The notes beneath the pieces are model-generated. The model had not been told where the DNA came from. It searched no databases and saw only the letters and a list, made by a program, of their open reading frames with translations. Positions 3,623 to 62,750 of a stretch of DNA of 64,000 nucleotides are shown one piece after another. A program made the position numbers and the translations under genes. Source of the DNA: Embleya scabrispora DSM 41855 (lineage in GTDB: Bacteria; Actinomycetota; Actinomycetes; Streptomycetales; Streptomycetaceae); assembly GCF_000372745.1 (NCBI RefSeq), contig NZ_KB889693.1, forward strand, positions 1 to 64,000, given 5' to 3'. Numbering within the stretch: position 1 is the first letter of the stretch; the number at the start of each line of letters is the position of its first letter.

Positions 3623-5125
3623 TCACCCCGAGGATCCGCCGTGTCCCGACGCCCAGGGCCACCCCAGTCGCCCCCGCCGCTGCGGCGGCGAAGACGGCGA
3701 CGACGGCGCGGAGGGCGCGGCCGGCGACGTCGGCAACGGCGGCAGCGCCTCGCGATACAGCCACGCGTCGAACAACTCGTCCACCGGCCGGGAGGCGTAC
3801 CGCGCCACGTGTGCGGTGAAGTCGTCCGTGACGACCACGCCGTGCCGGTGCGTCGTGGCCCAGTCCCGCAACATCGTGAAGAACGCCGCGTCGCCCAGCG
3901 CGCACCGCACCGCGTGTACGGTCAACGCTCCGCGAGCGTAGATCCGGTCGTCGAAGATCAGCTTCGGGCGCGGCGACCCGAGCAGCAGGTCCTGCGGCAG
4001 GCCGCCCAGTCGGGTGTGCTCCACGGCCGCCTGCACGGCGGCGGCTCGCCCGCCGGAGCGCTCGGCCCACAACCACTCCGCGTAGCGCGCGAAGCCCTCG
4101 TTGAGCCAGATGTGCCGCCAGTTCGCCAGTCCGACGCTGTTGCCGAACCACTGGTGGGCCAACTCGTGCGCGACCAACCGTTCGAAGCCGCGCTCGCCGT
4201 CGACGTGGTTCGCCCCGAAAGTGGCCAGCCCCTGGGCCTCGATCGGGATGTCGAGTTCGTCGTCGGTGACCACCACGGTGTACTCACCGAACGGGTACGG
4301 CCCGAACAACTCCTCGAAGAGCGTCATCATCTCCGGTTGCCGGGCGAAGTCGACCAGGAAGCGTGGCAGCAGCCGGGCCGGCACGTGCGCGAACTGCGGC
4401 ACGCTCGCGCCCGGTTCCAGCGGTCCGACCGTGTCGTAGCGGCCGATCGAGACGCTGACCAGGTAGCTCGCGGTGGGCGCGGCCTGCTCGTAGACCCACG
4501 TGGAGGTGCTGCCCCGGGTGCTGCGGGTGAGCAGCTCACCGCTGACCACCACGGTGTACGCCGACGGCGCGGTGACCGAGATCTGGTACGCCGCCTTGTC
4601 GTCGGGCCGGTCGTTGCACGGGTACCAGGACGGCGCGCCGATCGGCTGGCCGGCCACCAGCGAGCCGTCGGTCAACTCCTCCCAACCGATCCCGCCCCAT
4701 GGGCTGCGCACCGGTTTGGGATTGCCGACGTAGTGCACCTCGACGGTGAACGCGGCCCGCGCGCCGATGGCCGCGCCCGGCCGCACCCGCAGCTTGCCCG
4801 CGCGGTGCGTGTAGCGCGCCTGGCGGCCGTTCACCAGCACCCGGCCGATCCGGAATTCGCCCAGGTCGAGCACGACTTCGCCGAGCGGCCGATCGCCGGC
4901 CACGGCGCCGATTCGGGCGGTGCCGGCCAGCCGATTGGGGCCTGGGCGGTAGTCCAGGGCCAGCTCGTAGCGATGTACGCGATAGCGCGGATCGCCGTGC
5001 GTGGCGAAGTACGCCTCCCCCGCGGCCGAGCGCGGCCCCTGGTCGACCACCGATTCGTGCTCCGTCCCCGTCGCGCCCACCGTCGCGGGACGGGCCGTGT
5101 CCTGCGACGCCGCCTCGAAACGCAT
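3623..5125 (-). CDS. M1 family zinc metallopeptidase, downstream of the Pls-type synthetase
   Basis: 500 residues counted from the ATG that overlaps the synthetase stop as TAATG; an in-frame ATG at 5137 is possible. Zinc site HELAH at residues 320-324, with the third ligand E343 in NEGFA. The canonical GAMEN exopeptidase motif is replaced by IEAQGLATFG (residues 295-304), which keeps only the Glu; short bacterial M1 enzymes often vary here. A beta-rich N-terminal domain precedes the catalytic domain, and the last 30 residues are Pro/Ser/Arg-rich. No signal peptide is seen. In epsilon-poly-lysine producers an M1-like degrading enzyme (Pld) lies beside pls (recalled knowledge), so trimming or detoxifying the polymer is the likely job here. 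Confidence 0.85.
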   Translation of the reverse strand: MRFEAASQDTARPATVGATGTEHESVVDQGPRSAAGEAYFATHGDPRYRVHRYELALDYRPGPNRLAGTARIGAVAGDRPLGEVVLDLGEFRIGRVLVNGRQARYTHRAGKLRVRPGAAIGARAAFTVEVHYVGNPKPVRSPWGGIGWEELTDGSLVAGQPIGAPSWYPCNDRPDDKAAYQISVTAPSAYTVVVSGELLTRSTRGSTSTWVYEQAAPTASYLVSVSIGRYDTVGPLEPGASVPQFAHVPARLLPRFLVDFARQPEMMTLFEELFGPYPFGEYTVVVTDDELDIPIEAQGLATFGANHVDGERGFERLVAHELAHQWFGNSVGLANWRHIWLNEGFARYAEWLWAERSGGRAAAVQAAVEHTRLGGLPQDLLLGSPRPKLIFDDRIYARGALTVHAVRCALGDAAFFTMLRDWATTHRHGVVVTDDFTAHVARYASRPVDELFDAWLYREALPPLPTSPAAPSAPSSPSSPPQRRGRLGWPWASGHGGSSG

Positions 5126-8100
5126 TACCGTCGCCATGCCTCGATCGGATTGCCCAGCCAACCGGTGTCCTCCGGGACCGTCTCGCCGCGCATCACCAGC
5201 GAGGCGGGACCCAGCGTGCTGCGTGCCCCGATCGTGCTGCCCGGCAGCACGATCCCGCGCGGGCCCAGGGTGGCGCCCTCGCGAAGGATCACAGTATCCA
5301 TCCGCATGATCCGGTCGTGGAAGAGATGTGTCTGGAGCACACAGCCGTGCCCCACGCTCACCGCGTCCTCCAGGGTGACCAGGTCCGCCTCCGGCAGCCA
5401 GTAGCTCTCGCACCACACGCCGCGGCCGATGGACGCCCCGAGCCCGCGCAGCCACACGTTCATCACCGACGTACCGGGCACCCGGCCGATCAGCCACGGC
5501 ACGGCCAACACCTCGACGAAGGTGTCGGCGAGCTCGTTGCGCCACACGAAGCCGCTCCACAGCGGGTGCTCGACCGGCTTGAACCGGCCGACCAGGAGCC
5601 ACTTGGCCGCGATCGACACGACGCACGCGAGCACACCGCAGCCGAGCAGGACCGGGCCGGACAGCAGCGCGGCCAGGATCAGCGAGTGGGTGCCCAGCCA
5701 GGCCAGCGCGGCCAGGGTCAGTACGGCCAGCGCGGCGGAGCACAACACCGGAACCGCTCGGCACAGCTCGACCAGGCCGCGGGCCCAGCGCAGCCGGGCG
5801 GGCGGGTCGTAGGTCAGGCCCTGGTCCGCGACGTCCGCCGAACGCGGCAGCCGCATCGGCGGCATGCCCAGGTACGAGCCGCCCTTCTTGGTCTTCTTCG
5901 GCGTCGCGGACAACACGCCGACCAGGCCGCGGGCGGGCACCGAGCGGCCCGGCGCGGTCATCCCCGAGTTGCCCAGGAAGGCCCGCTCGCCGATCCGCGC
6001 CTCGCCGATCCGGATCCGGCCGCCGCCGAGTTCGTAGGAGGCGATCAGCGTGTCGTCGGCCAGGAACGCGCCGTCGCCGACCGTGGTCAGGCTCGGCAGC
6101 GCCAGCACCGTGGACGCCTCGACGCCCTTGCCCACCTTCATCCCCAGCGCCCGCAGCCACACCGGCGTGAACAGGCTCGCGTACAGCGGGAACAGCTTTT
6201 CCCGGGCCAGGTCCATCAGCTGGGTGACGGTCCACGCCTGCCAGCCGATCCGGCCGTGCAGCGGGTGGTAGCCGGGCCGCAGCCCCAGGCTGAGCAGACG
6301 CACCAGAAGCAGGATCGACAGCGCGTAGACCAGCGCGAACGCGGCCACGGCCGGCACCAGGGCGAGCATGGCCCCGGTGAGCGCCGCGCCGAAACCCTCG
6401 CCCGGCGGCACGAACGCGCCGAGGATCGGCAGTACCGGCAGCACCGCCAGGATCGGCAGCAGCGTCGGCACCAACCCGCTCACGCCGTACAGCACCGCCC
6501 AGCGCGCCTTGCGCGGCGGACGCTCGCCGAACCGGCCCCGGTCGACCTTGCCGAGTCGAACGGCCGGCACCCCGCCCCAGCGACGGCTCGGCGGCACGTT
6601 GCCGGTGACCGCGGAACCGGCCGCCACCTCGGCGGAGCGGCCGATCCGGGCACCGGGGAAGAGGGTGCTGCGGGTGCCCACGATGGCGCCCGCGCCGACC
6701 TTTATCGCGCCGATCTCCAGCCGGTCGCCGTCCAGCCAGTGACCGGACAGGTCCACCTCGGCCTCCACCGCGCAGCCTCGGCCGAGCTTGAGCAGGCCGG
6801 TGACCGGCGGCAGGGTGTGCAGGTCGACGTCCTGGCCGACCTTGGCACCCAGTGCGCGGGCGTAGCGCAGCAACCAGGCCCCGGAGAGCGCGGTCGCACC
6901 ACTGGCGTCGGCCAATTGTTCGGCCGCCCACAGCCGGATGTGCACGCCGCCACCGCGCGGATGGGTGCCCGGGCGCACCCCGCGCAGCAACAACCGGGCG
7001 CCGCCGGCCGCGATCGCCACCCGGGCGGGCGGGCTGAACAGCGCGGCCCAGCCGGCCGCGACCCACCACCACGACGCGGTCGGCGCCCACGGGTAGTCGC
7101 CGAACCAGGCGGCGACGTTGCCCAGCGCGAGCAGGCCGACCGTCCAGCGCAGCCCGATCAGGGTGAACAACGGGATCAACAGGAGCAACTGGGCGACGCG
7201 GGCCCGGGTGGGCGTGGGTGCCACCTTGCGCACCGCGCCCGCGTCCTGGGCCGAGCGCTCCAGGCGGCGGGCCAGCTTGCGCAGCGTGGGCTGCTGATAG
7301 ATGTCGGCGACCGCGGCGGCGGGGTAGCGCTCGCGCAGCAGCGTGGTCAACCGGGCGGCGGCCAGGCTGTTCCCGCCGATCGCGAAGAAGTCGTCCTGCG
7401 CGCTCTCCGGGGCGATGCCGAGCACGTCGGTCCACTGCTCGGCGAGCCACGCCTCGGTGCCGTAGAGCTGCTCGGTGGGACCGGCGTCCTCCGCGTCCGC
7501 GAGCGGCCACGGCAGCGCGTCCCGGTCGACCTTGCCGGAGGTCCGGGTGGGCAGGTCGGCCACCGGGGCGAGCCGGGGCACCAGGGCCGCGGGCAGTTCG
7601 GCCCGCAACCGGCGGACCGCCTCCTCGCGATCCCAGCCCTCGCCGGTCACCAGGTAGCCGACCAGGAGCTGATTGCCGCCCTTGACGGTGCGTACGGCGG
7701 CGGCCGCGCCCACCACGCCGGGCAGGGCCTGTAGGGCCGCGTCGATCTCGCCGAGTTCGATCCGCCGGCCGCCGAGCTTGATCTGCTCGTCGCCGCGACC
7801 GACGAAGACCAGGCCCTCGGGGTCGGCGCGCACCACGTCGCCGCTGCGGTAGGCGCGATCCCAGCCCATCGATTCCAGCGGCGCGTACTTCTCCGCGTCC
7901 TTGACCGGGTCCAGGTAGCGGGCCAGGCCGACGCCGCCGATCACCAGCTCGCCGGTCTCACCCATCGCGACGGGTCGACCACCGGGATCGACCACGGCCA
8001 GTTCCCAGCCGTCCAGGGGCAGCCCGATCCGAACCGGGCCCTCGCCGGTGAGCAGCGATCCACAGGCGACCACGGTCGCCTCGGTCGGGCCGTACGTGTT

Positions 8101-9012
8101 CCACACCTCGCGGCCCTCGGCGACCACGCGCTCCACCAACTCGGGCGGGCATGCCTCGCCGCCGAAGATCAGCAGCCGTACGTCCAGCAGCGCCTCGGTC
8201 GGCCACAGCGCGGCGAGCGTGGGCACCGTGGAGACCACGGTGATCTCCTGCTCGGCCAGCCACGGCCCCAGGTCGGCGCCGGAGCGCACCCGTGAGCGCG
8301 GCACGGTGACCAGGCACGCGCCGTATCGCCAGGCCAGCCACATCTCCTCACAGGACGCGTCGAAGGCGACCGACAGGCCCGCCATCACCCGGTCGCCGGG
8401 GCCGATCGGCTCCTCCTGGAGGAACAGCCCGGCCTCGGCGTCCACGAAGGCCGCCGCGTTGCGGTGGGTGACCGCGACGCCCTTGGGCTTGCCGGTGGAG
8501 CCGGAGGTGAAGATGATCCAGGCATCGTCCCCGGGGCCGGGTCGAGCCGGCGCCACGGGCGTGTTGCCGGCCCGGGTGACACGCAGTTCGCGCTCGGCAC
8601 CGAGCACGGCGCATACGCCGGCCTCGCCGAACACCAGGTCGGCCCGCTCGTCCGGATCCTCGGCGTCCACCGGGACGTAGGCGGCGCCGGCGGCCAGCAC
8701 GGCAAGGATGGCGATGTACAGGTCGTTGCTGCCGGACGGCACCCGGATGCCGACCCGGTCCCCGACGCCGACCCCGGCGTCGGCGAGCCGGCGGCGCAGC
8801 GCCTCCACCTCGGCGGCCAGGGCGCGGTACGTCAGCGTCCGCCGGCCGTCGTCGAGGGCGGGCTCGTTCGGGTGGGCCCGGACGGTGGCGTCCAGGATGT
8901 CCACGAGGGTGCGCGGCGCGGGGGCGGGGCGCCCGGGGTAGCCGGCCGGGGTCGGCGTCGGTGCGGTGCCGGACCGATCGTCCGAGGCACGTACTGGTAG
9001 CGCGATGGCCAT
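5125..9012 (-). CDS. pls: Pls/PosA-type single-module non-ribosomal peptide synthetase (cationic homopolypeptide synthetase)
   Basis: 1295 residues, against about 1319 for epsilon-poly-L-lysine synthetase of Streptomyces albulus. Adenylation domain about 35-500: P-loop IIFTSGSTGKPKG (166-178), FDASCEEMW (217-225), YGPTEATV (307-314), YRSGD (388-392) and the A10 lysine in TSGKVDRDALP (K494). Carrier domain with GGNS, Ser549 taking phosphopantetheine. From about 600 onward there are several membrane helices alternating with hexapeptide-like left-handed helix stretches, e.g. GATLGPRGIVLPGSTIGARS near the end; this matches the tandem C-terminal domains that couple monomers in Pls. There is no classical condensation or thioesterase domain. 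E221, at the position next to the pocket Asp, gives an acidic pocket and suits a basic amino acid (inference). Product is probably poly-lysine, poly-diaminobutyrate, poly-diaminopropionate or similar. Confidence 0.88.
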   Translation of the reverse strand: MAIALPVRASDDRSGTAPTPTPAGYPGRPAPAPRTLVDILDATVRAHPNEPALDDGRRTLTYRALAAEVEALRRRLADAGVGVGDRVGIRVPSGSNDLYIAILAVLAAGAAYVPVDAEDPDERADLVFGEAGVCAVLGAERELRVTRAGNTPVAPARPGPGDDAWIIFTSGSTGKPKGVAVTHRNAAAFVDAEAGLFLQEEPIGPGDRVMAGLSVAFDASCEEMWLAWRYGACLVTVPRSRVRSGADLGPWLAEQEITVVSTVPTLAALWPTEALLDVRLLIFGGEACPPELVERVVAEGREVWNTYGPTEATVVACGSLLTGEGPVRIGLPLDGWELAVVDPGGRPVAMGETGELVIGGVGLARYLDPVKDAEKYAPLESMGWDRAYRSGDVVRADPEGLVFVGRGDEQIKLGGRRIELGEIDAALQALPGVVGAAAAVRTVKGGNQLLVGYLVTGEGWDREEAVRRLRAELPAALVPRLAPVADLPTRTSGKVDRDALPWPLADAEDAGPTEQLYGTEAWLAEQWTDVLGIAPESAQDDFFAIGGNSLAAARLTTLLRERYPAAAVADIYQQPTLRKLARRLERSAQDAGAVRKVAPTPTRARVAQLLLLIPLFTLIGLRWTVGLLALGNVAAWFGDYPWAPTASWWWVAAGWAALFSPPARVAIAAGGARLLLRGVRPGTHPRGGGVHIRLWAAEQLADASGATALSGAWLLRYARALGAKVGQDVDLHTLPPVTGLLKLGRGCAVEAEVDLSGHWLDGDRLEIGAIKVGAGAIVGTRSTLFPGARIGRSAEVAAGSAVTGNVPPSRRWGGVPAVRLGKVDRGRFGERPPRKARWAVLYGVSGLVPTLLPILAVLPVLPILGAFVPPGEGFGAALTGAMLALVPAVAAFALVYALSILLLVRLLSLGLRPGYHPLHGRIGWQAWTVTQLMDLAREKLFPLYASLFTPVWLRALGMKVGKGVEASTVLALPSLTTVGDGAFLADDTLIASYELGGGRIRIGEARIGERAFLGNSGMTAPGRSVPARGLVGVLSATPKKTKKGGSYLGMPPMRLPRSADVADQGLTYDPPARLRWARGLVELCRAVPVLCSAALAVLTLAALAWLGTHSLILAALLSGPVLLGCGVLACVVSIAAKWLLVGRFKPVEHPLWSGFVWRNELADTFVEVLAVPWLIGRVPGTSVMNVWLRGLGASIGRGVWCESYWLPEADLVTLEDAVSVGHGCVLQTHLFHDRIMRMDTVILREGATLGPRGIVLPGSTIGARSTLGPASLVMRGETVPEDTGWLGNPIEAWRR

Positions 9013-12270: not shown

Positions 12271-13140
12271 ATGTGGACACGGGTCGCGAGCGGCCGAGGG
12301 GTTGGGGCGGGGCGGATGTGCGCGGGGTTGCTCGCGATGGCGTTGCTCGGAGGGTGTGGTGGCGCGTCGGACAACGACCGGAAGGACCGGGAAGCGCGGC
12401 CGACCCCGACCGGGGCGCCGGGGGGCGCCGGCTTCGAGGTGAGCTACGAGCGCCCCGCCGACGCGGATCGCGGCGAAGCCGGTTTCCTGCGCGAGCGGAA
12501 GGCGTTGGAGTCGGTCGCCGACTCACTCAACCGGTTCGTCCGGCTCACTCACCGGGTACCGGTCGTCGCCCGCTCGTGCGGCGGTGAAGGATCCGGGTAC
12601 GACCCGAACTCCCGTCGTGTGGAGATCTGTTACGACCAGGCCGCCGAGGAGCGCCGGCTCTTCGAACGCGCCGGACACCACCCGGCGGATGCCGAAGTCG
12701 CCGCGGTCATCGCCGAAACCCTCTACCACGAGGCCGGCCACGTCCTGATCGACGACCTGACCCTGCAACTGACGGACCGCGCCGAGGAGGACGCCGCAGA
12801 CCGCTTCGCCGCGCTGCTGATGCTCCGCCAGGGCCCCGAGGGCGAGCGCCAGTTACGCGCCGCGGTCGAGGAGTACGAGCTGTCGGCCGCCGACGGGGAC
12901 GCCGGGAGCGGGGGCGGCGACGCCGGCGGGAGCAGCGGCGCCAAGGACGAGCACGCCCCGGATCGCCTGCGCGCCGCGAACCACCTCTGTTATCTGTACG
13001 GTTCCGCTCCGCAACGCAACCCGGAAGCGGCGAACTCGCCACTGCTCACCCCGACCCGCGCAGCCGGCTGCGCCACGGAGTGGGCACACGTACGCACCGC
13101 CTGGATGACCGACCTCGCTCCGCTGCTTCGGGAGCGATAG
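12271..13140 (+). CDS. DUF4344 family putative metallopeptidase lipoprotein
   Basis: 289 residues. The N-terminus is Arg-containing, then hydrophobic, ending in the lipobox LLGGC (Cys at about residue 29), so it should be an exported lipoprotein. YHEAGHVLIDD (about residue 152) carries an HExxH-type zinc motif, and the downstream EEDAADRFAALLML resembles the third-ligand helix of this family. A Gly/Ser/Asp-rich linker lies at about 210-228. Four C-terminal cysteines or fewer could form disulfides (LCYLYG, GCATEW). The start codon lacks a strong ribosome-binding site (GGGC only), so the exact start is moderately sure. Substrate unknown. Confidence 0.75.
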   Translation: MWTRVASGRGVGAGRMCAGLLAMALLGGCGGASDNDRKDREARPTPTGAPGGAGFEVSYERPADADRGEAGFLRERKALESVADSLNRFVRLTHRVPVVARSCGGEGSGYDPNSRRVEICYDQAAEERRLFERAGHHPADAEVAAVIAETLYHEAGHVLIDDLTLQLTDRAEEDAADRFAALLMLRQGPEGERQLRAAVEEYELSAADGDAGSGGGDAGGSSGAKDEHAPDRLRAANHLCYLYGSAPQRNPEAANSPLLTPTRAAGCATEWAHVRTAWMTDLAPLLRER

Positions 13141-21429: not shown

Positions 21430-23553
21430 ATGAACCACTCCAACGGCCACGGCGACAGCACCGGTCGTGCCGACCAACAGACCTACCGGCAGCTGGCCCG
21501 CGAATTGTTGCTGATCGGCCCCGAGCCCACCAACGAAGACCTCAAGCTGCGCTACCTCGACACCCTCATCGACAACGGGCTACAGCCGCCGCCGCAACGC
21601 AAACGTGTACTGATCGTCGGTGCCGGCATCGCCGGCCTCGTCGCCGGCTCGCTGCTGACCAAGGCCGGGCACGACGTGACGATCCTGGAGGCCAACGCCA
21701 ACCGGGTCGGCGGTCGGATCAAGACCTTCCACACCAGGAAGGGCGAGCCGTCCCCCTTCGCCGACCCCGCGCAGTACGCCGAGGCCGGGGCCATGCGCGT
21801 ACCCAGCTTCCACCCGCTCACCCTCGCGTTGATCGACAAACTCGGCCTGAAGCGGCGGCTGTTCTACAACGTCGACATCGACCCGACGACCGGCAACGAA
21901 GGCGTGCCGGTACCACCTGTGACCTACCGCTCCTTCACCGGCGAGGAGTGGACGAACGGCCCGGCCGGCACCGAGTTCCGCGAGCCGGACAAGCGCAACC
22001 ACACCTGGATCCGCACCAACCGCGAACAGGCTCGCCGCACCCGTTACGCCGAGCAGCCCTGTGTGCTCAACGAGGGCTTCCACCTGAGCGGCTACGAATC
22101 ACGGGTGACCGTGGCGCAACTGGTCCATGACGCGCTGGAGCCGGTCCGGAACTACTACTCCGACCTGATCGACGGCCAACGGATCAACAAGCCCTTCGAC
22201 AAGTGGCTCGACGGCTGGGCCGCTGTCGTCCGCGACTTCGACGGTTTCTCGATGGGCCGCTTCCTGCGCGAGTACGCGGGTTTCAGTGACGAGGCCGTCG
22301 AGGCGATCGGCACCATCGAGAACATGACCTCGCGGCTGCACCTGGCCTTCTTCCACACCTTCCTGGGCCGCAGCGACATCGACCCGAAGGCCACCTACTG
22401 GGAGATCGACGGCGGCAGCCGGCTGCTCCCGGAGGCACTCGCGAAGGATCTGCGCGACCAGATCGTCATGGGCCATCGCATGGTCCGCCTCGAGTACCGC
22501 GACCCCGACCGGGACGGCTCCGGTGGCCCGACGGGCTCGGGCGGCGACGCGGTCGTCATCCAGACGGTGCCCGAGCACACCCCGTACGCCGAACCCCAGA
22601 CCTGGACCGGCGACGTCGCGATCGTCACCATCCCCTTCTCCAGCCTGCGCTTCACCCGGGTGTCCCCGCCGTTCTCGTACAAGAAGCGCCGCGCCGTCAT
22701 CGAGACGCACTACGACCAGGCCACCAAGGTGCTCCTCGAATTCTCGCGCCGCTGGTGGGAGTTCACCGAGGACGACTGGAAACGCGAACTCGACGCCATC
22801 GACCCCGACCTCTACGACTACTACCAAAACCTGGGCGAGGACCCCGCCGAAGCCGCCGTGTCCACCCCCTCCGCCGTGCGCGACCTGCCCACCGGACTGC
22901 TCGGCGCCCATCCCAGCGTCGACGAATCCCGGATCGACGCCGACCAGGTCGCCTACCTGCGCAACTCGCCGCTCTACGAGGCCGGCGTGCGGCCCGCCAC
23001 CAACGCCTACGGTGGCGGCTCCACCACCGACAATCCCAACCGCTTCATGTACTACCCTTCCCACCCCATCGCCGACAGCCCCGGCGGGGTCGTCCTGGCG
23101 AGCTACTCGTGGTCGGACGACGCGGTGCGCTGGGACTCGCTGGAGGACGGCGAACGCTACGGCTACGCGCTGCGCAACCTCCAGTCCGTGCACGGGCTCC
23201 GCATCGAGGTGTTCTTCACCGGCGAGGGCCAGACCCAGAGCTGGCTGCGCGACCCGTACGCGTTCGGTGAAGCCGCCGTGTACACGCCGCATCAGATGAC
23301 CAGCTTCCACCTGGACGTGGTCCGTCCCGAAGGCCCCGTGCATTTCGCGGGTGAACACGTCTCCCTCAAGCACGCCTGGATCGAGGGCGCCGTCGAAACG
23401 GCCGTACGCGCCGCCATCGCCGTCAACGGCGCGCCCGTCCACGCCCGGCCCGTCGTCGCGGCCGAACCCACCGACCCGGCACGCCACGAACCGGCGAGCG
23501 TGGGCGAATCCGCGCAGCCCCACCGAATTCCCGAGGAGATGCCCGCGTCATGA
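21430..23553 (+). CDS. L-glutamate oxidase (FAD-dependent)
   Basis: 707 residues, against about 701 for the L-glutamate oxidase precursor of Streptomyces sp. X-119-6, whose sequence as I recall it is very similar throughout (for example [18 protein letters not shown] at 33-50 and [20 protein letters not shown] at 298-317). FAD-binding [10 protein letters not shown] at about 64-73, then [16 protein letters not shown]302 and H309 align with Arg305 and His312, which set glutamate specificity in the known enzyme. C-terminal FAD contact region YFAGEH-like [17 protein letters not shown]. Reaction: L-Glu + O2 + H2O to 2-oxoglutarate + NH3 + H2O2. No signal peptide is seen; the characterised enzyme is extracellular after processing. 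The stop overlaps the decarboxylase start (ATGA). Confidence 0.9.
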
Positions 23554-25394
23554 CCACGACCCAGGACTGCACGGTCGCCGAGTACCTCGCCCTCAGGCTC
23601 GAACAACTCGGTATCAAACACCTGTTCGGCGTCCCGGGCGACCTCCTCGGCCCGTTCCTGACCACGATGCACGCCAAGTCCACGGTGCGCTGGGTGGGCA
23701 CCCCCACCGAGGTCGGCGCCGGATACGCCGCAGACGCGTACGCCCGGGTCACCTCGGCCGACGCCGACCTCGCGCTCGGCGAGCAGGGCGTCGCCGCGTG
23801 TGCCGTCACCTACGGCGTGGGCGCGTTCAACCTGCTCAACCCGATCGGCGGCGCCTATGCCGAATTCGTGCCGGTGATCGCGATCAACGCCGCTCCCAGC
23901 CACGAACAGTGGCTCAACCAGCAGGCGATCGGCCTGCTCACCACCCACATGATCCAGCGCCCCGAAAGCAACCTCGAGGTCTACCGGCAGGTCACCGTCG
24001 ACGCCCAGGCGATCTCCAACCCCGGCCTGGCCCCCATCCAGATCGACAGCGCGATCACCGCCTGTCTGACCCATCGCCGGCCGGTCTACCTGGAGGTCAT
24101 GGCGGACGTGTGGTCGGCCCGGTGCCCCGCGCCGCAGGGGCGCCTGACCGGACGCGAACGGCCGTTCACCGAGGCGAACCGACGCATGCTCGGCAAGGCC
24201 GTGGCGGCGACCCTCGACCTGATCCGCACCGCGGGCAACCCGATCATCTGGGCCGGCGAGGAGATCGACCGGTTCCGGCTCTCCGACGAACTCATCGCGC
24301 TGGTGCGCGATACCCGCATCCCGTTCTGCACCACCATCGGCGCCAAGGCCGTCGTCTCCGAGGAGACCCCCGGCTACTCGGGCGTCTACAACGGCAAGGC
24401 CAGCGACCCCGACGTGTACAAGATGTTCCACGCTGCCGGCTGCCGGATCGGCCTCGGCTCGTGGGCGACCTCGAAGAACCTCGGCGGCGAACAGTCGATC
24501 GGCGCGGACTGGGCCGTCGCCGCCCACGAGGGGGTCAACGTGGGCGCCTCCTACTTCCCCGACGTGCAACTCGAACGGTTCATCCCGGCCCTGCGCGAGG
24601 CGCTGACCGCGGAGTTCGGCGCGGGCGTCTTCGCCGCCGACTACTTCGCCCAGGCACACGCGGCGGGCCTGGATGTCCCCGCCACCACCGCCGCCTACCT
24701 GGCGGGTCTGGTGGGTGGCGACTACCCGAAGGACCTGACCTACGACAGCTTCTTCCGCCACGTCAACGCTTTCCTCCAGGACCAGGACAGCGGCCCGCCC
24801 GGGGCACGCGTCAACCCGTTCACCGTGGTCTCCGACGCGGCGTTCGCGCTGATCGGCTCGATGAACCTGCACATGGCCGAGCGCGCCTCCTTCGTGGCCC
24901 AGAACAGCTGGCTGTCCATCGGCTACTCGGTCGGGGCCGCCTCCGGTGTGGCCCTGGCCCGGCAGGAACCCGAGAAGCGCCCCCTGGTGTTCGTCGGTGA
25001 CGGCTCCTTCCAGGAGACCTGCCAGGAACTGTCCACCCAGGTCCGGCACGAACTGCGCCCCGTTGTGTTCGTGCTGGACAACGACGGGTTCTACGGCATC
25101 GAACAGATGCTGGTGCACCCCTGCTACTACGCGGAGAACCCGTCCGAGGGAGCCGAGTTCTACAACGACCTGCATGTGTGGCAATACGAGCGACTCGCCG
25201 ACGTCTTCGGCTCCGCCAAGCACCCGATGACCGGGGTGAGCGCTCGCACCCACACCGAACTGGCCGACATCCTGGGCCGAATCGCCGACCCGGACCACCC
25301 GATCAACCAAGGGCCGACCCTGGTCCGAGTCCTGCTCGACCGGCGCGACTACCCGAGGGCGATGCAATACAAGATCGACGAGAACTGCCGGTAG
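23550..25394 (+). CDS. Thiamine diphosphate-dependent 2-oxoacid decarboxylase (pyruvate/indolepyruvate decarboxylase-like)
   Basis: 614 residues. N-terminal PYR domain with the activating glutamate E54 in [17 protein letters not shown]; central domain; C-terminal PP domain with the cofactor motif GDGS followed about 30 residues later by [10 protein letters not shown]. The paired catalytic histidines of pyruvate decarboxylases (LHH) seem replaced by LTTHMIQ, leaving one His, so substrate or reaction may differ. Acetolactate synthase-type FAD features are not evident. It is coupled by ATGA overlap to the glutamate oxidase, so its substrate may be 2-oxoglutarate, giving succinate semialdehyde and CO2, or another oxo acid made by the oxidase (inference). 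A strong terminator closes the operon. Confidence 0.85.
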
Positions 25395-56675: not shown

Positions 56676-57494
56676 TCACTCGACCGGCAGGCGACTCCGC
56701 TCCAGCAGCCAGGCCGCGATCCGCTCGCCCGCCGTCACACCCTGTGCGGTCAGCGCCTCGACGTGCGGCGCCGACCAGTTCGTCTCGGCCAGTTCGCCGT
56801 GCCCCGGCCGTACCCCGGCGTCCGCCGCACGCAGCAGCTCGATGTCCAGCAGCGAGTCGCCCGCGGCGAACACCGCCTCGGCGCCGGCCCGCCGGGCCAC
56901 CTCGCGCACCGCGTCGCCCTTGGTCAGCGCCTCCGGGACGAGGTAGAGCTTGCGGCCCTGGAGCGAGACGCCGTAGCCGCGCTCGGCCGCCCACGCGGTC
57001 GTCTCGGGCACGAACTCCGGCGGCAGTTCCGCCCGTTCCACCACCAAGTAGGTGAACAGGTCCTCCGCCACCCGGAGTTTGTGGGTCCACTCGGGGCGGG
57101 TGACCCGTTCCAGATGGGCCACCACCTCCGGCAGCGGAGCGGCGTTCTCGGCCAGGCCCTTGCGCACTCCCGCGTGCCAGTCCGGGTCGCTCTCACCGTG
57201 CACGAGCAGGTGGCCGCCGTTCGCGCAGATCGCGAACTCCGGGGCCCGGCCGGGCAGTACGATCCGCCCGTACTGCTCGCGGGTGCGCGTGGTGGTGGGC
57301 ACGAAGGTGGTCCGCTCGGCCAGTTCGGCGAGCAGCGCGACGGCGTCCCGGGTGACGAACGACATCGGCGCGCCGTCGTACTCCTCCACACACACCAGCT
57401 CGGGTGTCGGGTCCGTCGCCGCCAGGCCCAGTCGGGCGGCGGCCCCGGAGTAGACGAGGGTGCGGTCCAGATCGCTGGCCACCACGACACTCAC
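56676..57494 (-). CDS. HAD family hydrolase of the Ter cluster
   Basis: 272 residues from GTG 57494, which overlaps the previous stop (GTGA). HAD motif I SDLDRTLVYS (nucleophile Asp about 8), motif II TTTRT, motif III Lys in TKGDAVRE and motif IV FAAGDSLLDIELL. The cap is of the Cof/sucrose-phosphatase kind. Such a phosphatase is a regular member of Ter operons and is thought to act on a phosphorylated nucleoside-like intermediate (published comparative genomics, recalled). Confidence 0.87.
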   Translation of the reverse strand: MSVVVASDLDRTLVYSGAAARLGLAATDPTPELVCVEEYDGAPMSFVTRDAVALLAELAERTTFVPTTTRTREQYGRIVLPGRAPEFAICANGGHLLVHGESDPDWHAGVRKGLAENAAPLPEVVAHLERVTRPEWTHKLRVAEDLFTYLVVERAELPPEFVPETTAWAAERGYGVSLQGRKLYLVPEALTKGDAVREVARRAGAEAVFAAGDSLLDIELLRAADAGVRPGHGELAETNWSAPHVEALTAQGVTAGERIAAWLLERSRLPVE

Positions 57495-58663
57495 GCGTTG
57501 CTCCCTTCCCGGCGAAAGCCGGGTTTGACCAAACCGACGCACGAGTACGGCAGGTCGTCCACGTCGACGACCGGAACCCCGCGCTGCGCGGCGAGCATCC
57601 GCACGTGGTCCAACTCCGCGCCGACGCCCTTGCGGGCCAGGATCTGCCACGGGACCCGGCGCAGCAGCACCCGGGTGGTCTCGCCGACACCGGGCTTGAT
57701 CAGGTTGATGTTGTCGATCTCGTACTCGACGCCGATCCGCTCGACCGCACGCCACCCCTCCCAGGTCGGCGATCGATCGCTCGCGGCCAGTACCGGTCGA
57801 TCGCGCGCGACGTCCTCGCTCACCGCGGCGAACCGCGCGGCGACGGTGTCCAGGAACAGGCCGGAGACGTCGGCCTCGGCCAACTCGGCGTAGAACTTCG
57901 CGCCGTGGAACTCGTCCGGGCCGATCAGGTCGTCCCGCAGCACGGTGCGCGAAACCAGCCCGGAGACCGTCGAGTTCAGGCACGCGGACGGGACCAGGAA
58001 GTCGTCGCGGGTGCCGTAGGTGCGCACGCACGAGCCCGGGTCGGCGAGCACGGCCAGTTCCGGGTCGAAGCGCATGCCGGTGGTCTCGGCGGTCAGCTCC
58101 AGCGCGTCGGACAACTCCCGGGTGATCGCGCCCTTGCCGGTCCAGCCGTCCACGAAGACGATCCGCGAGGGGTCGAACTCGCGGCCCAGCCAGCGCAGTG
58201 CGGTGGTGTCGATGCCGCGTCCGCGCACGATCGACACGGCGAAGTGCGGCAGGGTCAGGCCGTGCGCGCGCCGGGCCCAGCGGCGCATCAGCACGCCCAC
58301 CGGGGTGCCGGCGCGGGCGAGCGAGACCAGCACCGCATCGTGGCCGCGTTCGGCCAGGATGGTCTCGGTGACCACGCCGACGGCGTGCGCGATCCGGTCC
58401 GCGGATGCGTCCAACGCGGCGTGGAACAGCGCCTGGTACTCGGGCGAGGGCTGGTACTCGATCGGCAGCGACTCGGCGTAGTGCGCGCCCGCGTGCTGGA
58501 TCGCCTCCTCGCGCTCCTCGAGCGGTGCCTCCAACTCCACCGCGGACAGGTCCTTGAGCAGCCAGGCGACCTCGTCGGCGGCGTAGGAGGAGAACGCGGG
58601 CCCGTACAGCGGGTCCGGCAGTTTGCCGGTGTCGTGCCCGTGCGGGCTCGGCTGGTGGTTCAT
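57491..58663 (-). CDS. StiP family protein with C-terminal PELOTA-type RNA-binding domain
   Basis: 390 residues. The N-terminal part (about 15-300) follows the StiP/cysteine-protease-like family of Ter operons: YGPAFSSYAADEVAWLLKDL, LVSLARAGTPVGVLMRRW and RIVFVDGWTGKGAITREL, which also look like a phosphoribosyltransferase-type loop. The C-terminal 85 residues (INLIKPGVGETTRVLLRR, GAELDHVRMLAAQRGVPV) form a PELOTA-like RNA-binding fold, as in ribosomal L7Ae relatives. Overlaps both neighbours by four bases. Likely part of a biosynthetic set making a nucleoside-like stress metabolite. Confidence 0.82.
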   Translation of the reverse strand: MNHQPSPHGHDTGKLPDPLYGPAFSSYAADEVAWLLKDLSAVELEAPLEEREEAIQHAGAHYAESLPIEYQPSPEYQALFHAALDASADRIAHAVGVVTETILAERGHDAVLVSLARAGTPVGVLMRRWARRAHGLTLPHFAVSIVRGRGIDTTALRWLGREFDPSRIVFVDGWTGKGAITRELSDALELTAETTGMRFDPELAVLADPGSCVRTYGTRDDFLVPSACLNSTVSGLVSRTVLRDDLIGPDEFHGAKFYAELAEADVSGLFLDTVAARFAAVSEDVARDRPVLAASDRSPTWEGWRAVERIGVEYEIDNINLIKPGVGETTRVLLRRVPWQILARKGVGAELDHVRMLAAQRGVPVVDVDDLPYSCVGLVKPGFRREGSNA

Positions 58664-59925
58664 GACCTGCGCACCTCGGGGGTGAAGGAGGGGACAACGA
58701 GCAGACCGACGTGGTCGGTGATCCGGGACAGCACGTCCGGCAGCCCACCGGGCGCGTGCAGTTCGGGAGTGTCGGCGACCGAGTCGACGACGACCAGCAC
58801 CTCGTCGAACCGTCGCGCGGGATCGGTGCCGGCCGCGACGTTGTACGCGTAGCGGACGCCGGGACCGTCCGACGGGTCGTCGTGGGCCGGGAATTGCAAC
58901 CTGGTGCGGATCGCGTAGCCGGGATCGTCGACCGCGAGCACCGGCGAGCGGGTCGTGGTCGAGTAGCGCACCTCGACGTCCGCCGCGACGTGTTCGGCCA
59001 GCGCCCGGGCCAGCCGCAGCGGCGTGTACATCAGTTCCTCGAAGCCGAGCACCAGGATCCGCCGGCCGACCACCTGTTCGGCCAGTGCGGCGCCCAGCGT
59101 GGGCAACGCCCGCTCCAATGCGTCCTGATCGGCCTGGGTGAACCCGTGCCGGCCGCCGTCGGGCAACCCGGCGGGCCAGTCCAGGTCGAGGGTGCGCACC
59201 TTGCCGGGCCCGTCGTCGTCGGCCGGTTGGCCGCCGTCGTGCTCGGCCACCAGCGCGGTGCCGCGCACGAGCACGTCCTCGGGCAGTTCGACGGTGCCCG
59301 CGGCCAGGCTGACCAGGTCCACCCGGGCGCCGAGTTCGGCCGCGAGCACCGCCAAGCCGGCCCGATCGGCGGGGCCGCGCACATCGATCAGCGCCGCGAT
59401 CACGTAGTGCGCGCGCGGCGCCACCGTGTGCAGCTCGCGAATGGTGTTGGCGACCGTGAGTCCGGTCGACAGTTCGTCGTCCACCAGGACCAAGGGCTCG
59501 GTTCCGGCCAGGAGTTGCGGATCACGCGGCAGGATCAGATGCGAGGTGGCGTGCGAGTGCTCCTCCTCGAACGCGCCGAACTGGGCGACCCCGGCCACCG
59601 GGCGACGGGTCGAGTGCAGGTAGGTCGCCCCGGGCAGGACCTCGGCCACACAGTGCCCCAGGCCGGTCGCGGTCTCCGCGTAGCCGAGCACCACCGGCGT
59701 CGGCTCGCCGGCCAGGACGCTCGCCACCCGCGCGCCCAATGCACGGCCCGCGTCGTGAACCACCGCGGGCAGTTGCGGAATGTGCTTGCCGAGCACGGTG
59801 GACACCAGCAGGTGGGCCCGGCGCGGGTTGCGGCGCAGCGCGAGCCCGACCAGCGCGTCGAGTCCGTCCCCCGCGAGCGCCACGTCGAGTCGCTCGGCGA
59901 CCCAACTCCCCGACCAGGTTTCCAT
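58660..59925 (-). CDS. Phosphoribosyltransferase of the Ter cluster (TRSP domain type)
   Basis: 421 residues from ATG 59925. PRTase loop LVLVDDELSTGLTVANTIRE (about 135-154) with the acidic pair followed by small residues that bind the ribose-5-phosphate. Earlier, VVLGYAETATGLGHCVAEVL looks like a second PRTase-type loop. The C-terminal part is the TRSP domain (ILVLGFEELMYTPLRLARAL). The start is not sure: no good ribosome-binding site precedes ATG 59925, and a TTG at 59940 is possible. ATGA overlap with the next gene makes one operon. Confidence 0.82.
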   Translation of the reverse strand: METWSGSWVAERLDVALAGDGLDALVGLALRRNPRRAHLLVSTVLGKHIPQLPAVVHDAGRALGARVASVLAGEPTPVVLGYAETATGLGHCVAEVLPGATYLHSTRRPVAGVAQFGAFEEEHSHATSHLILPRDPQLLAGTEPLVLVDDELSTGLTVANTIRELHTVAPRAHYVIAALIDVRGPADRAGLAVLAAELGARVDLVSLAAGTVELPEDVLVRGTALVAEHDGGQPADDDGPGKVRTLDLDWPAGLPDGGRHGFTQADQDALERALPTLGAALAEQVVGRRILVLGFEELMYTPLRLARALAEHVAADVEVRYSTTTRSPVLAVDDPGYAIRTRLQFPAHDDPSDGPGVRYAYNVAAGTDPARRFDEVLVVVDSVADTPELHAPGGLPDVLSRITDHVGLLVVPSFTPEVRRS

Positions 59926-60024
59926 CCGATGTTCACTCAACGCACGAACTCGCTTCCCTCGACACCGATCGCATCCCACCGCCGCGGGGCCACCCGGCCC
60001 GTCGGCTCCTTCACCGCATGCCCG

Positions 60025-61197
60025 TCACTCCATGCCGGCCGCGAGCAGGTCGACGAAGGTGACCTCCTCGCCCGCGACGCCGAACGCCTGCGCCCGCCGC
60101 AATATCGCCTGGGCCCAGGCCCGGTGCGGCTTCACCTCGTTCATCTTGTTCGTGTACGCCGAGCGCAGCACCCCGCCGCCGGCCGCGCTCTCGGCCAGGA
60201 TGTCGGTGGCGTCGCAGTACTCCTCGTGGGTGACCACCGACATCGCGTGGATCACCGCCACGTGGCTGGGGTGGATCGCGGTCTTGCCGAGCAGACCGTT
60301 GGCCTTGTCCAGTTCCAGCTCGCGGATCAGCCCGTCCAGGTCCGCCGAGATCAGCCGGGTACGCAGTTCGACCGCCTCGTCCGGGTCCTCGGCCTCGGCG
60401 AACGGGGTGCGGCGCAGCTGCGGCTTGAACAGTCGCTCGCCCTGCGGGAAGTACTCCCACACCGGTCCGCTGATCACGTGTCCGGTGCCGTCCGCGCGGC
60501 CGAACACGTTGACTATGTCCCCGATCAGGCCCGCCACCAGGTGCACGTCGTACGCGGTCAGGTCGCGCGAGCGGCGCAGCGCGTACGCGGACTGGAAGTC
60601 GGTGGCCCCGATCCGCACCGCGAGGATCTTGTCCCGGTGCGCGGCGACCAGCTCGGCGAGCTCGGCGAGCACCGCGCGCCGGTGTTCGAGGTAGGCGATC
60701 GAGGGCGACTCCAGCACCGGCATCGCGTACAGCCGACGTCCGCTGAGTGCGATCGCCTCGTCCAGCGCCTTGAGGTAGCGCGCGCCGCTGTCCGGCTCGA
60801 ACTTGGGCAGCACGAATCCGGACAGCACTTTCAGGGTGTCGCCGAGCCGCTCGGTCAGGTCGGTGATCTGCTCGGGGTGGCGGACCCGGATGAACAGCAG
60901 CGGGCCCTCGACCTTGGAGCGGGCGAACTCGGCCAGTTGCTCGACCAGGTTCTGCTCGGCGCCGACCACCTCGCGGTCGTCGATCGAGTCCTCCAGGCAC
61001 AACACCATCGAGGTCACGCCGCGGGCGGCCTGTTTGACGATGTCCGCCGCGAGCGTGACGCGCGTCGCGGGGCTGTACAGCGTCGCACCGAGGGCCGCGG
61101 CCAGGACGGCGGAGTCGCTGTCCCGGTCGAAGGTCTCCGGCGGGCGGTGGAACAGATGATCGCGGACCGCATCGTCCAGGTAGCCGAAATGCCGCAT
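60025..61197 (-). CDS. HpcH/HpaI aldolase / citrate lyase-like enzyme of the Ter cluster
   Basis: 390 residues from ATG 61197 (GAGGGGG upstream). TIM-barrel C-C lyase: SMVLCLEDSIDDREVVGAEQ carries the metal-binding Glu/Asp region, LLFIRVRHPEQ follows, and FVLPKFEPDSG is the next strand. LYAMPVLESPSIAYLEHR and AVRIGATDFQSAYALRR provide acidic active-site residues. It heads the four-gene operon with PRTase, StiP and HAD genes, at a gap of 99 bp. In Ter systems this lyase is predicted to supply a building block. Confidence 0.85.
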   Translation of the reverse strand: MRHFGYLDDAVRDHLFHRPPETFDRDSDSAVLAAALGATLYSPATRVTLAADIVKQAARGVTSMVLCLEDSIDDREVVGAEQNLVEQLAEFARSKVEGPLLFIRVRHPEQITDLTERLGDTLKVLSGFVLPKFEPDSGARYLKALDEAIALSGRRLYAMPVLESPSIAYLEHRRAVLAELAELVAAHRDKILAVRIGATDFQSAYALRRSRDLTAYDVHLVAGLIGDIVNVFGRADGTGHVISGPVWEYFPQGERLFKPQLRRTPFAEAEDPDEAVELRTRLISADLDGLIRELELDKANGLLGKTAIHPSHVAVIHAMSVVTHEEYCDATDILAESAAGGGVLRSAYTNKMNEVKPHRAWAQAILRRAQAFGVAGEEVTFVDLLAAGME

Positions 61198-61448
61198 CGT
61201 GATCTGATCCCCCTCGACTGACGGTGGTGGTGGCAAAGGCGCGTCGGGGCGGGAAACCCGTACGCGCCCTGGTGCTTCGGAAATGGCGCATTCGCGCCTT
61301 GCCGGTGAGCCGCCGGCAGGCGCTGCCTACGGTAACCGAAAAGCAAAATCGAAGGCGTACGATCCGGTTATAGGACCATGTGTTCACACAATCGTCACGA
61401 GCCTGACCCACGTTGAGCGCAGCTCCTTCGGGACGGCAGGATGGGCGC

Positions 61449-62750
61449 ATGACCCAGGTGATGTCCAAGGGAGCGAACACGACCCTCCCTGCCCGGTCCG
61501 TGCGCGTGGTCCTCGAATGGCGGCCGGGAGCCGGTGTTCCGGACATGGACGCCTCGGCCCTGCTGCTCGGTGCGAACAACAAGGTGCGCGACGACAACGA
61601 CTTCGTCTTCTACAACCAGCCCCGGCATCCGTCCGGCACGGTGGTCCACGAGGGCAAGAACACCGCCCCGAACGGCTGCACCGACGGCGTCCGGGTGGAT
61701 GTCGCCGCGCTCGGCAACGATGTGCGGCACGTGATCGTGGCCGCGTCCGCGGACGGCGGCACGATCGGCTCGGTGCCCGGCCTCGTCCTTCGACTGTACG
61801 ACGCCGACGGCGGCGGCGAGCTGCTCAACTTCCCCATCGCCGGAGCCACCACCGAGACGGCGTTCGTCTTCGGCGAGATCTACCGGCGGGCCGACCAGTG
61901 GAAGTTCCGTGCGGTCGGGCAGGGCTACGCGAGCGGTCTCGCGGGCCTGGCCACCGATTACGGCATCAGCGTCGACGACGAACCGGGCGCACCGGCGCCC
62001 GCGCCCGCCCCGATGCCGCTCCCGCCGGTGCACCAGTCCCCGCCGACCGCGCCGGCCCCGCCTCCGGTGTTCCGCGACGGTCCGCCCGCGCCGCCCGCGT
62101 TTCAGGAAGCGGCTCCCACCGCCGTCCTGCCGCAGTACGGCCAGGGCACGCTGCCCGCACCGCCCGCGCCGCAGCCGCCCGCGCAGCCGCAGGGTGTGCT
62201 GCCGATCTCCGGCAACACACCGTACGGCGGCGCCCCGCTGCCGCCGCCTCCGCCGCGCCACGACGGCCCGATGATCCCGCCGCCGCCGGCCCCGCACACG
62301 ATCGGCGGCCCGCCGCCCGGCTACCCGCAGACTCCCTCCGCCGGCGCACCGGTCCCACCGCCGCCCCCGATGGGCGGTACCCCGCCGCAAGGCTTCCCGC
62401 CGCCCGGCACGCCCGTCCACGGAATGGCCTTCCAGACCCCGCCGGGCGTGATGCACATGCCGCCGGGCGGCCCGCAGCTGCCCGCGCCGGGCCAGTACTC
62501 GCCGGCCCACGGCATCCCGCAGCCGCCCGGGCCGTACACGCCCTCGCACGGCGCTCCCATGCCGCCCGGGGGCACCCCGGCGCAGGGCATGGGCATGCCG
62601 CCCCAGCAGCAGTACCAGGGCACTCCGCCGCAGGGCATGGGCATGCCACCTCAGCAGCAGTACCAGGGCACCCCGCCGCAGGGTCAGGGCGGCCCGCCGC
62701 AGCTGCGCCGGCTGGACTCACCACCGCAGGGCCCGCAGTTCCAGGGCTGA
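61449..62750 (+). CDS. terD: TerD domain protein with long Pro/Gly/Gln-rich tail
   Basis: 433 residues from ATG 61449 (AGGA 7 bases before). TerD domain at about 1-180: [20 protein letters not shown], the Ca2+-binding acidic loop [19 protein letters not shown], and [20 protein letters not shown]. From about 185 the chain is Pro/Gly/Ala/Gln-rich with repeats of [16 protein letters not shown]; usual TerD proteins stop at about 190 residues. The tail is probably disordered and may bind partners or cluster at the membrane. Divergent from the lyase operon; the 251-bp gap holds both promoters. Ter proteins bind calcium and support resistance to tellurite, phage and stress. Confidence 0.9.

Follow-up and report, generated by a model that had tools for sequence, protein, structure and literature searches.

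A lysine-code Pls synthetase and an adjoining M1 peptidase without a recognised export signal in Embleya scabrispora

Introduction

Does a peptidase encoded directly beside a poly-amino-acid synthetase trim the secreted polymer, or does it act inside the cell? This question is raised by a gene pair in the 64,000-nucleotide stretch of the E. scabrispora DSM 41855 genome that was analysed here (hereafter the window). Epsilon-poly-lysine is used industrially to preserve food, and the self-protection of producing bacteria has been studied via an operon with an extracellular peptidase. In excerpts of two reports on Streptomyces albulus, the synthetase gene pls and the peptidase gene pldII overlap by 4 nt in a single operon (PMC4361855) and pldII is translationally coupled to pls (PMC9223678), while a passage of a review places PldII activity outside the membrane or on the cell surface (PMC9205021), which fits an exported enzyme. 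Outside Streptomyces, PMC8117764 describes a pls-peptidase operon for Corynebacterium variabile, the Pls of which yielded epsilon-poly-lysine when expressed in S. coelicolor; according to the same paper, S. coelicolor M145 lacks pls. Since the S. albulus and C. variabile operons are already described, the pls-M1 arrangement is known, and the window pair is a further member of it. The synthetase architecture and the operon are likewise familiar; what goes further here is a split in peptidase export between clades, and a second lysine-code synthetase in the same genome with no peptidase beside it.

Results

The larger gene of the pair encodes an enzyme with the defining features of the Pls/PosA family, i.e., an adenylation (A) and a carrier domain followed by membrane segments arranged as three pairs and accompanied by acyltransferase-like regions (Table 1), and the family score confirms the layout of A, carrier, membrane and hexapeptide-like C-terminal parts that the original prediction had read from this 1295-residue protein. 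Domain matches were found for PF00501 (residues 41–365), PF00550 (522–584) and TIGR02353 (606–1290), with the Pfam hexapeptide match falling slightly under its cut-off. The C-terminal hydrophobic peaks lie near residues 609, 651, 850, 886, 1086 and 1111, the second segment (residue 651) being weak, with a mean of 1.27. PosA, the delta-poly-L-ornithine synthetase of Acinetobacter baumannii, shares this architecture and the conserved pocket residues D217 and E221, but differs in its code (DMEHNGTVSK) and its ornithine substrate, as given in excerpts of PMC10522769.

Table 1 Features of the synthetase-peptidase locus in window coordinates.
Feature	Position	Strand	Score
Pls/PosA-family homopolymer synthetase, 1295 aa	5125..9012	(-)	TIGR02353 771.6 bits, cut-off 423.1
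Adenylation domain, ~residues 41-506, code DAESIGTVVK	7495..8892	(-)	7WEW: 666 bits
Carrier (thiolation) domain, residues 522-584, GGNS phosphopantetheine site residues 546-549	7261..7449	(-)	
Pls/PosA C-terminal polymerisation domain, three hydrophobic segment pairs	5143..7197	(-)	
M1 zinc peptidase (PldII-related), 500 aa from ATG 5125, 504 aa from ATG 5137	3623..5125	(-)	
pls/M1 gene overlap: ATG 5137-5135 and ATG 5125-5123	5123..5137	(-)	

The pocket of the window A domain (D218, A219, E222, S261, I282, G284, T306, V314, V315 and K494) reads DAESIGTVVK. The classical code positions were assigned to motifs via GrsA numbering, an assignment that is consistent with the published PosA code. 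All ten residues equal those of 7WEW, the S. albulus Pls A domain, which is described in PMC11253843 as bound to Lys-AMP, with E217 forming a salt bridge to the lysine epsilon-amino group, aided by T301 and S256; these three contacts map to E222, T306 and S261 in the window. The acidic pocket residue originally noted as E221 is thus a glutamate as claimed, but its number belongs to PosA and the window residue is E222. The same code occurs in all of the best 80 of at least 591 relatives, in the other Pls that this genome encodes and in 40/40 loci sampled across the class (L148, a contig fragment lacking the A domain, stands outside this statement). According to excerpts of PMC10522769, the second code position varies with the substrate: Ala is found in lysine enzymes, Met in ornithine enzymes, and Phe in those for diaminopropionate or diaminobutyrate. 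Two distant outgroup Pls/PosA synthetases (L150 in genome G002 and L165 in G027) carry the Phe-type code DFECLSAVTK, and in L165 a homologue of M1 (44% identical) lies ~3 kb from the synthetase. Because the ten-residue code of the window enzyme is identical to that of 7WEW, L-lysine is its predicted monomer and epsilon-poly-L-lysine would be the product, which supports the assignment to a basic monomer and suggests that calling the exact product unreadable had been too cautious.

The two genes overlap, although the extent depends on which start codon the peptidase uses. The pls stop codon (TAA 5127–5125) overlaps the ATG at 5125–5123 as TAATG, the junction on which translational coupling had been proposed, and a second in-frame ATG lies 12 nt farther upstream at 5137, within pls. 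Since the latter matches the commonest M1 start site among Streptomyces relatives, TAATG may not be the true start; ATG 5137 is no less likely, and the overlap is either 1 nt or 13 nt, as compared with 4 nt in S. albulus. The end of pls itself points to this upstream site. An (E/Q)AW motif stands within the last ten Pls residues in 41 of the best 80 (of at least 591) relatives, and 21/41 of these loci encode its alanine by the rare codon GCA (a test counted on 41 of the 80 loci only, and one that ignores relatedness), as compared with 3.3% of the 15,156 alanine codons of the same genes and 11/441 alanine codons before tryptophan elsewhere. GCA-TGG generates an ATG near the pls end, and the window has the same GCA-TGG. 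The alanine codon is at position −12 in 37/41 motif loci, placing the derived ATG at −10, which is the first listed M1-frame start in 25/85 window-clade loci; of the 15 S. albulus-type loci, 13 have that start at −1, corresponding to the published 4-nt overlap. The overlap as such therefore stands, the status of TAATG as the real start is uncertain, and translation of the window M1 is probably coupled to that of pls.

The association of the two genes reaches far beyond the window. In 80/80 relatives (the best 80 of at least 591, from named genomes), the gene immediately downstream of pls encodes the M1 peptidase, which excludes a chance pairing, although this set is skewed toward window-like sequences and 34 of 70 is the less biased count. 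The latter comes from 61 related genomes, in which 34 of the 70 synthetases scoring over the cut-off have an M1 gene within 500 bp downstream and 36 have none adjacent, so the peptidase is not a general requirement of the Pls family. Counted from the peptidase side in the same genomes, 34 of the 36 M1 matches with at least 47% identity adjoin an over-cut-off synthetase, and of the other two one lies beside a Pls fragment at a contig end and one does not. In a class-wide scan, 56/246 genomes matched the window C-terminal domain, and M1 was adjacent in 38 of 40 loci sampled out of 57 places (L175 and L203 have no M1 in their stretch). Pls and M1 distances are correlated at r = 0.97 over 81 pairs, a value that 0/999 permutations reached. 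Together with the published pls-pldII precedent, the 80/80 linkage among the best-matching relatives supports the claim that the synthetase shares an operon with an M1 peptidase of its own.

Phylogenetically, the window pair belongs to a pan-actinobacterial clade that spans many families (SH-aLRT 100), whereas all members of the S. albulus-type clade (SH-aLRT 97) recovered here come from the family to which the window belongs; these values come from quick tree searches with SH-aLRT support only and no mixture model. Of the 80 loci, 22 entered one Pls tree and 17 a later one, the latter also without L127, L136, L140, L147 and L148; the fragment L148 is outside the Pls trees, and L149, L151 and L159 were dropped as they had no Pls match above 400 bits. 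The S. albulus-type clade comprises the S. albulus-type group proper, with A domains 75–92% identical to 7WEW and M1 in 15/15 loci; a smaller group with M1 in 3/4 loci, plus three more M1-bearing loci from a later check; and a third group of 11 synthetases with no adjacent M1. The window synthetase shares ~55–60% identity with S. albulus-type synthetases across the aligned parts. In a plasmid collection, its best named relative was Embleya sp. NBC_00896 (91.1% over 97%). Plasmids of Mycobacterium avium and M. intracellulare (H14–H18) carry genes annotated as Pls/PosA with 61% identity to residues 36–818 of the window synthetase.

The peptidase has an intact HExxH-18-E zinc site, with HELAH at residue 320, and a Peptidase_M1 match; its IEAQG segment is presumably the equivalent of the GAMEN motif of M1 enzymes. 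The zinc site is present in 81/81 pls-linked M1 proteins. Using a motif and hydropathy scan with set thresholds, as opposed to a trained predictor, we found no Tat-like motif, no hydrophobic N-terminus and no strongly hydrophobic segment in the window M1. Across the window clade (85 peptidases: the window, the 80 loci, L146, L147, L158 and L162), 84/85 have neither a Tat-like motif nor a hydrophobic N-terminus, the sole flagged member (L046) having a poor hydrophobic segment, and 2/81 pls-linked M1 proteins of the clade (L042 and L071) show a 19-residue hydropathy peak above 1.6 within the chain. The motif is likewise missing from all 38 class-wide peptidases (0/38). By comparison, a Tat-like signal was recognised in 18/18 pls-linked peptidases of the S. 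albulus-type clade, i.e., 15/15 of the group at 75–92% identity to 7WEW, standing in here for PldII itself, and 3/3 of the smaller group. A later check on 20 stretches, of which 19 fresh loci were analysed (L225 repeats L178), gave the same picture, with the motif in 3/3 peptidases of the S. albulus-type clade and 0/16 of the window clade. The three signal counts are kept separate and are not summed, because the genome sets may share species. On the trees the trait requires a single change. The split in peptidase export between the clade of the classical producers and the window clade is consistent, and apparently undescribed: in the literature that we searched on PldII export, twin-arginine signals and poly-lysine self-protection, no discussion of a signal-less PldII was found.

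Since no export signal was recognised, the window peptidase is predicted to be cytoplasmic, unlike PldII. A leaderless route or attachment through Pls may still carry it out, and it could then, like PldII, act extracellularly to trim or degrade epsilon-poly-lysine that has been secreted. This would agree with its operon position and M1 subfamily, both the same as for PldII, with the surface location of the latter in S. albulus (excerpt of PMC9205021), and with the longer chains that followed repression of pldII by CRISPRi, as reported in an excerpt of PMC9223678. However, the motif is absent in the window enzyme and throughout nearly all of its clade (84/85, 38/38 and 16/16 in the respective sets) while being present in those peptidases (18/18 and 3/3) that share a clade with the S. 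albulus system, and a review passage (PMC8506220) reports no change in the degree of polymerisation upon inactivation of Pld and PldII. We therefore consider external trimming through an unrecognised route to be unlikely. The original prediction of co-regulated making and trimming accordingly divides: making within a shared operon holds, whereas trimming finds little support, since the window peptidase has no export signal with which to reach secreted polymer, and it is weakened further by the unchanged polymer length in that review passage.

Two further explanations concern the substrates. The synthetase might use another lysine-like monomer, such as beta-lysine or a hydroxylysine, and so make a different cationic polymer; its A domain is only 66% identical to 7WEW (over 489 residues), codes are imperfect predictors, and beta-lysine polymer synthetases are described in the excerpted literature. 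Yet ten out of ten code positions are as in 7WEW, in the same excerpts the beta-lysine synthetases are set apart, grouped together with Dap/Dab enzymes, and no lysine-modifying gene was recognised among the scanned neighbours (an amine oxidase lies ~12 kb away), which makes a non-lysine monomer very unlikely.

M1 enzymes are broad aminopeptidases, and the best solved relatives of the window M1 (6A8Z and 6IFF) are named zinc metalloprotease, but the idea that it acts on ordinary peptides and is linked to pls for another reason has little chance of being right given the near-exclusive linkage (34/36), the co-divergence with Pls, and an M1 tree in which it groups with PldII-position enzymes, apart from four paralogs of its own genome (whose branches are long). 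The window M1 is thus best regarded as a PldII relative that would be expected to hydrolyse epsilon-poly-lysine.

The same genome encodes a second Pls (L086:6081-9974, on G000:C125) with the lysine code DAESIGTVVK, an A domain 74.5% identical to 7WEW and a position in the trees as sister to the S. albulus-type group. No M1 match was found in the surrounding 18 kb, and HAD and MFS genes lie upstream. The strain thus has two lysine-code synthetases with a peptidase beside one only, and the second, being nearer to S. albulus, may be its main producer. A transporter swap, with an MFS gene replacing M1 at loci without M1, was considered and rejected, as the MFS of L086 was present in 0/12 others.

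The genes around the window pair do not appear to belong to the system. Homologues of the MFS, PD40, ECF sigma, flavodoxin and DUF4344 neighbours were found in none of the 80 loci (the best 80 of at least 591), and the SDR neighbour gave weak matches (~34–36% identity) in 3/80; conserved neighbours as part of the system were therefore rejected, and the conserved unit is pls and M1 only. Within the genus, homologues of the SDR, sigma factor and flavodoxin genes are present in both loci (L146 and L147), and the sigma factor also matches L144 and L163, loci that hold other Pls types. The DUF4344 gene (12316–13140), a putative metallopeptidase near the operon, had no match in the two same-genus stretches. 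Elsewhere in the window, 21430–25394 carries two overlapping genes, for a 707-aa flavin amine oxidase and a 614-aa thiamine-diphosphate decarboxylase-like enzyme, the latter with indolepyruvate decarboxylase as its best NCBIfam match, under the cut-off, and 57491–62750 holds StiP, PRTase_2/TRSP, C-C bond lyase and TerD genes that resemble a tellurite-type stress cluster.

Discussion

Our results argue for a lysine Pls whose partner peptidase probably works on the inner side of the membrane. The A domain would activate L-lysine, the carrier would hold it as a thioester, and the membrane-embedded C-terminal domain would link the lysines via their epsilon-amino groups into a cationic polymer, a route that is established for S. 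albulus Pls and is predicted here from code and architecture. The M1 enzyme, produced alongside Pls, would stay in the cytoplasm and destroy polymer that is released or left at the inner side of the membrane, and this breakdown would return lysine and protect the producer rather than trim secreted polymer. We consider this mechanism, in which a cytoplasmic PldII-like enzyme recycles lysine and protects the cell, to be probable, and intracellular protection and recycling fits better than trimming. The window pair thereby resembles S. albulus pls-pldII in its identical A-domain code, the peptidase directly downstream and the overlapping genes, and differs from it in its clade, its overlap and its missing Tat-like signal.

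Should the peptidase be intracellular in most Actinomycetes, the usual model of protection and trimming would not apply to them. A wider generalisation, which we regard as doubtful, is that in most sampled Actinomycetes the pls operon serves to make and break the polymer within the cell, and that S. albulus, where the system is an extracellular antibiotic one and the peptidase is exported by Tat, represents a specialisation of the Streptomycetaceae. If this were true, synthesis at the membrane would be followed by turnover through a cytoplasmic peptidase, and epsilon-poly-lysine would have a physiological role, as a lysine store or as an envelope or polyanion partner, in many bacteria for which production is not known. 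The location of the peptidase is a simple, testable prediction, and it bears on why many bacteria without known secretion retain the pair.
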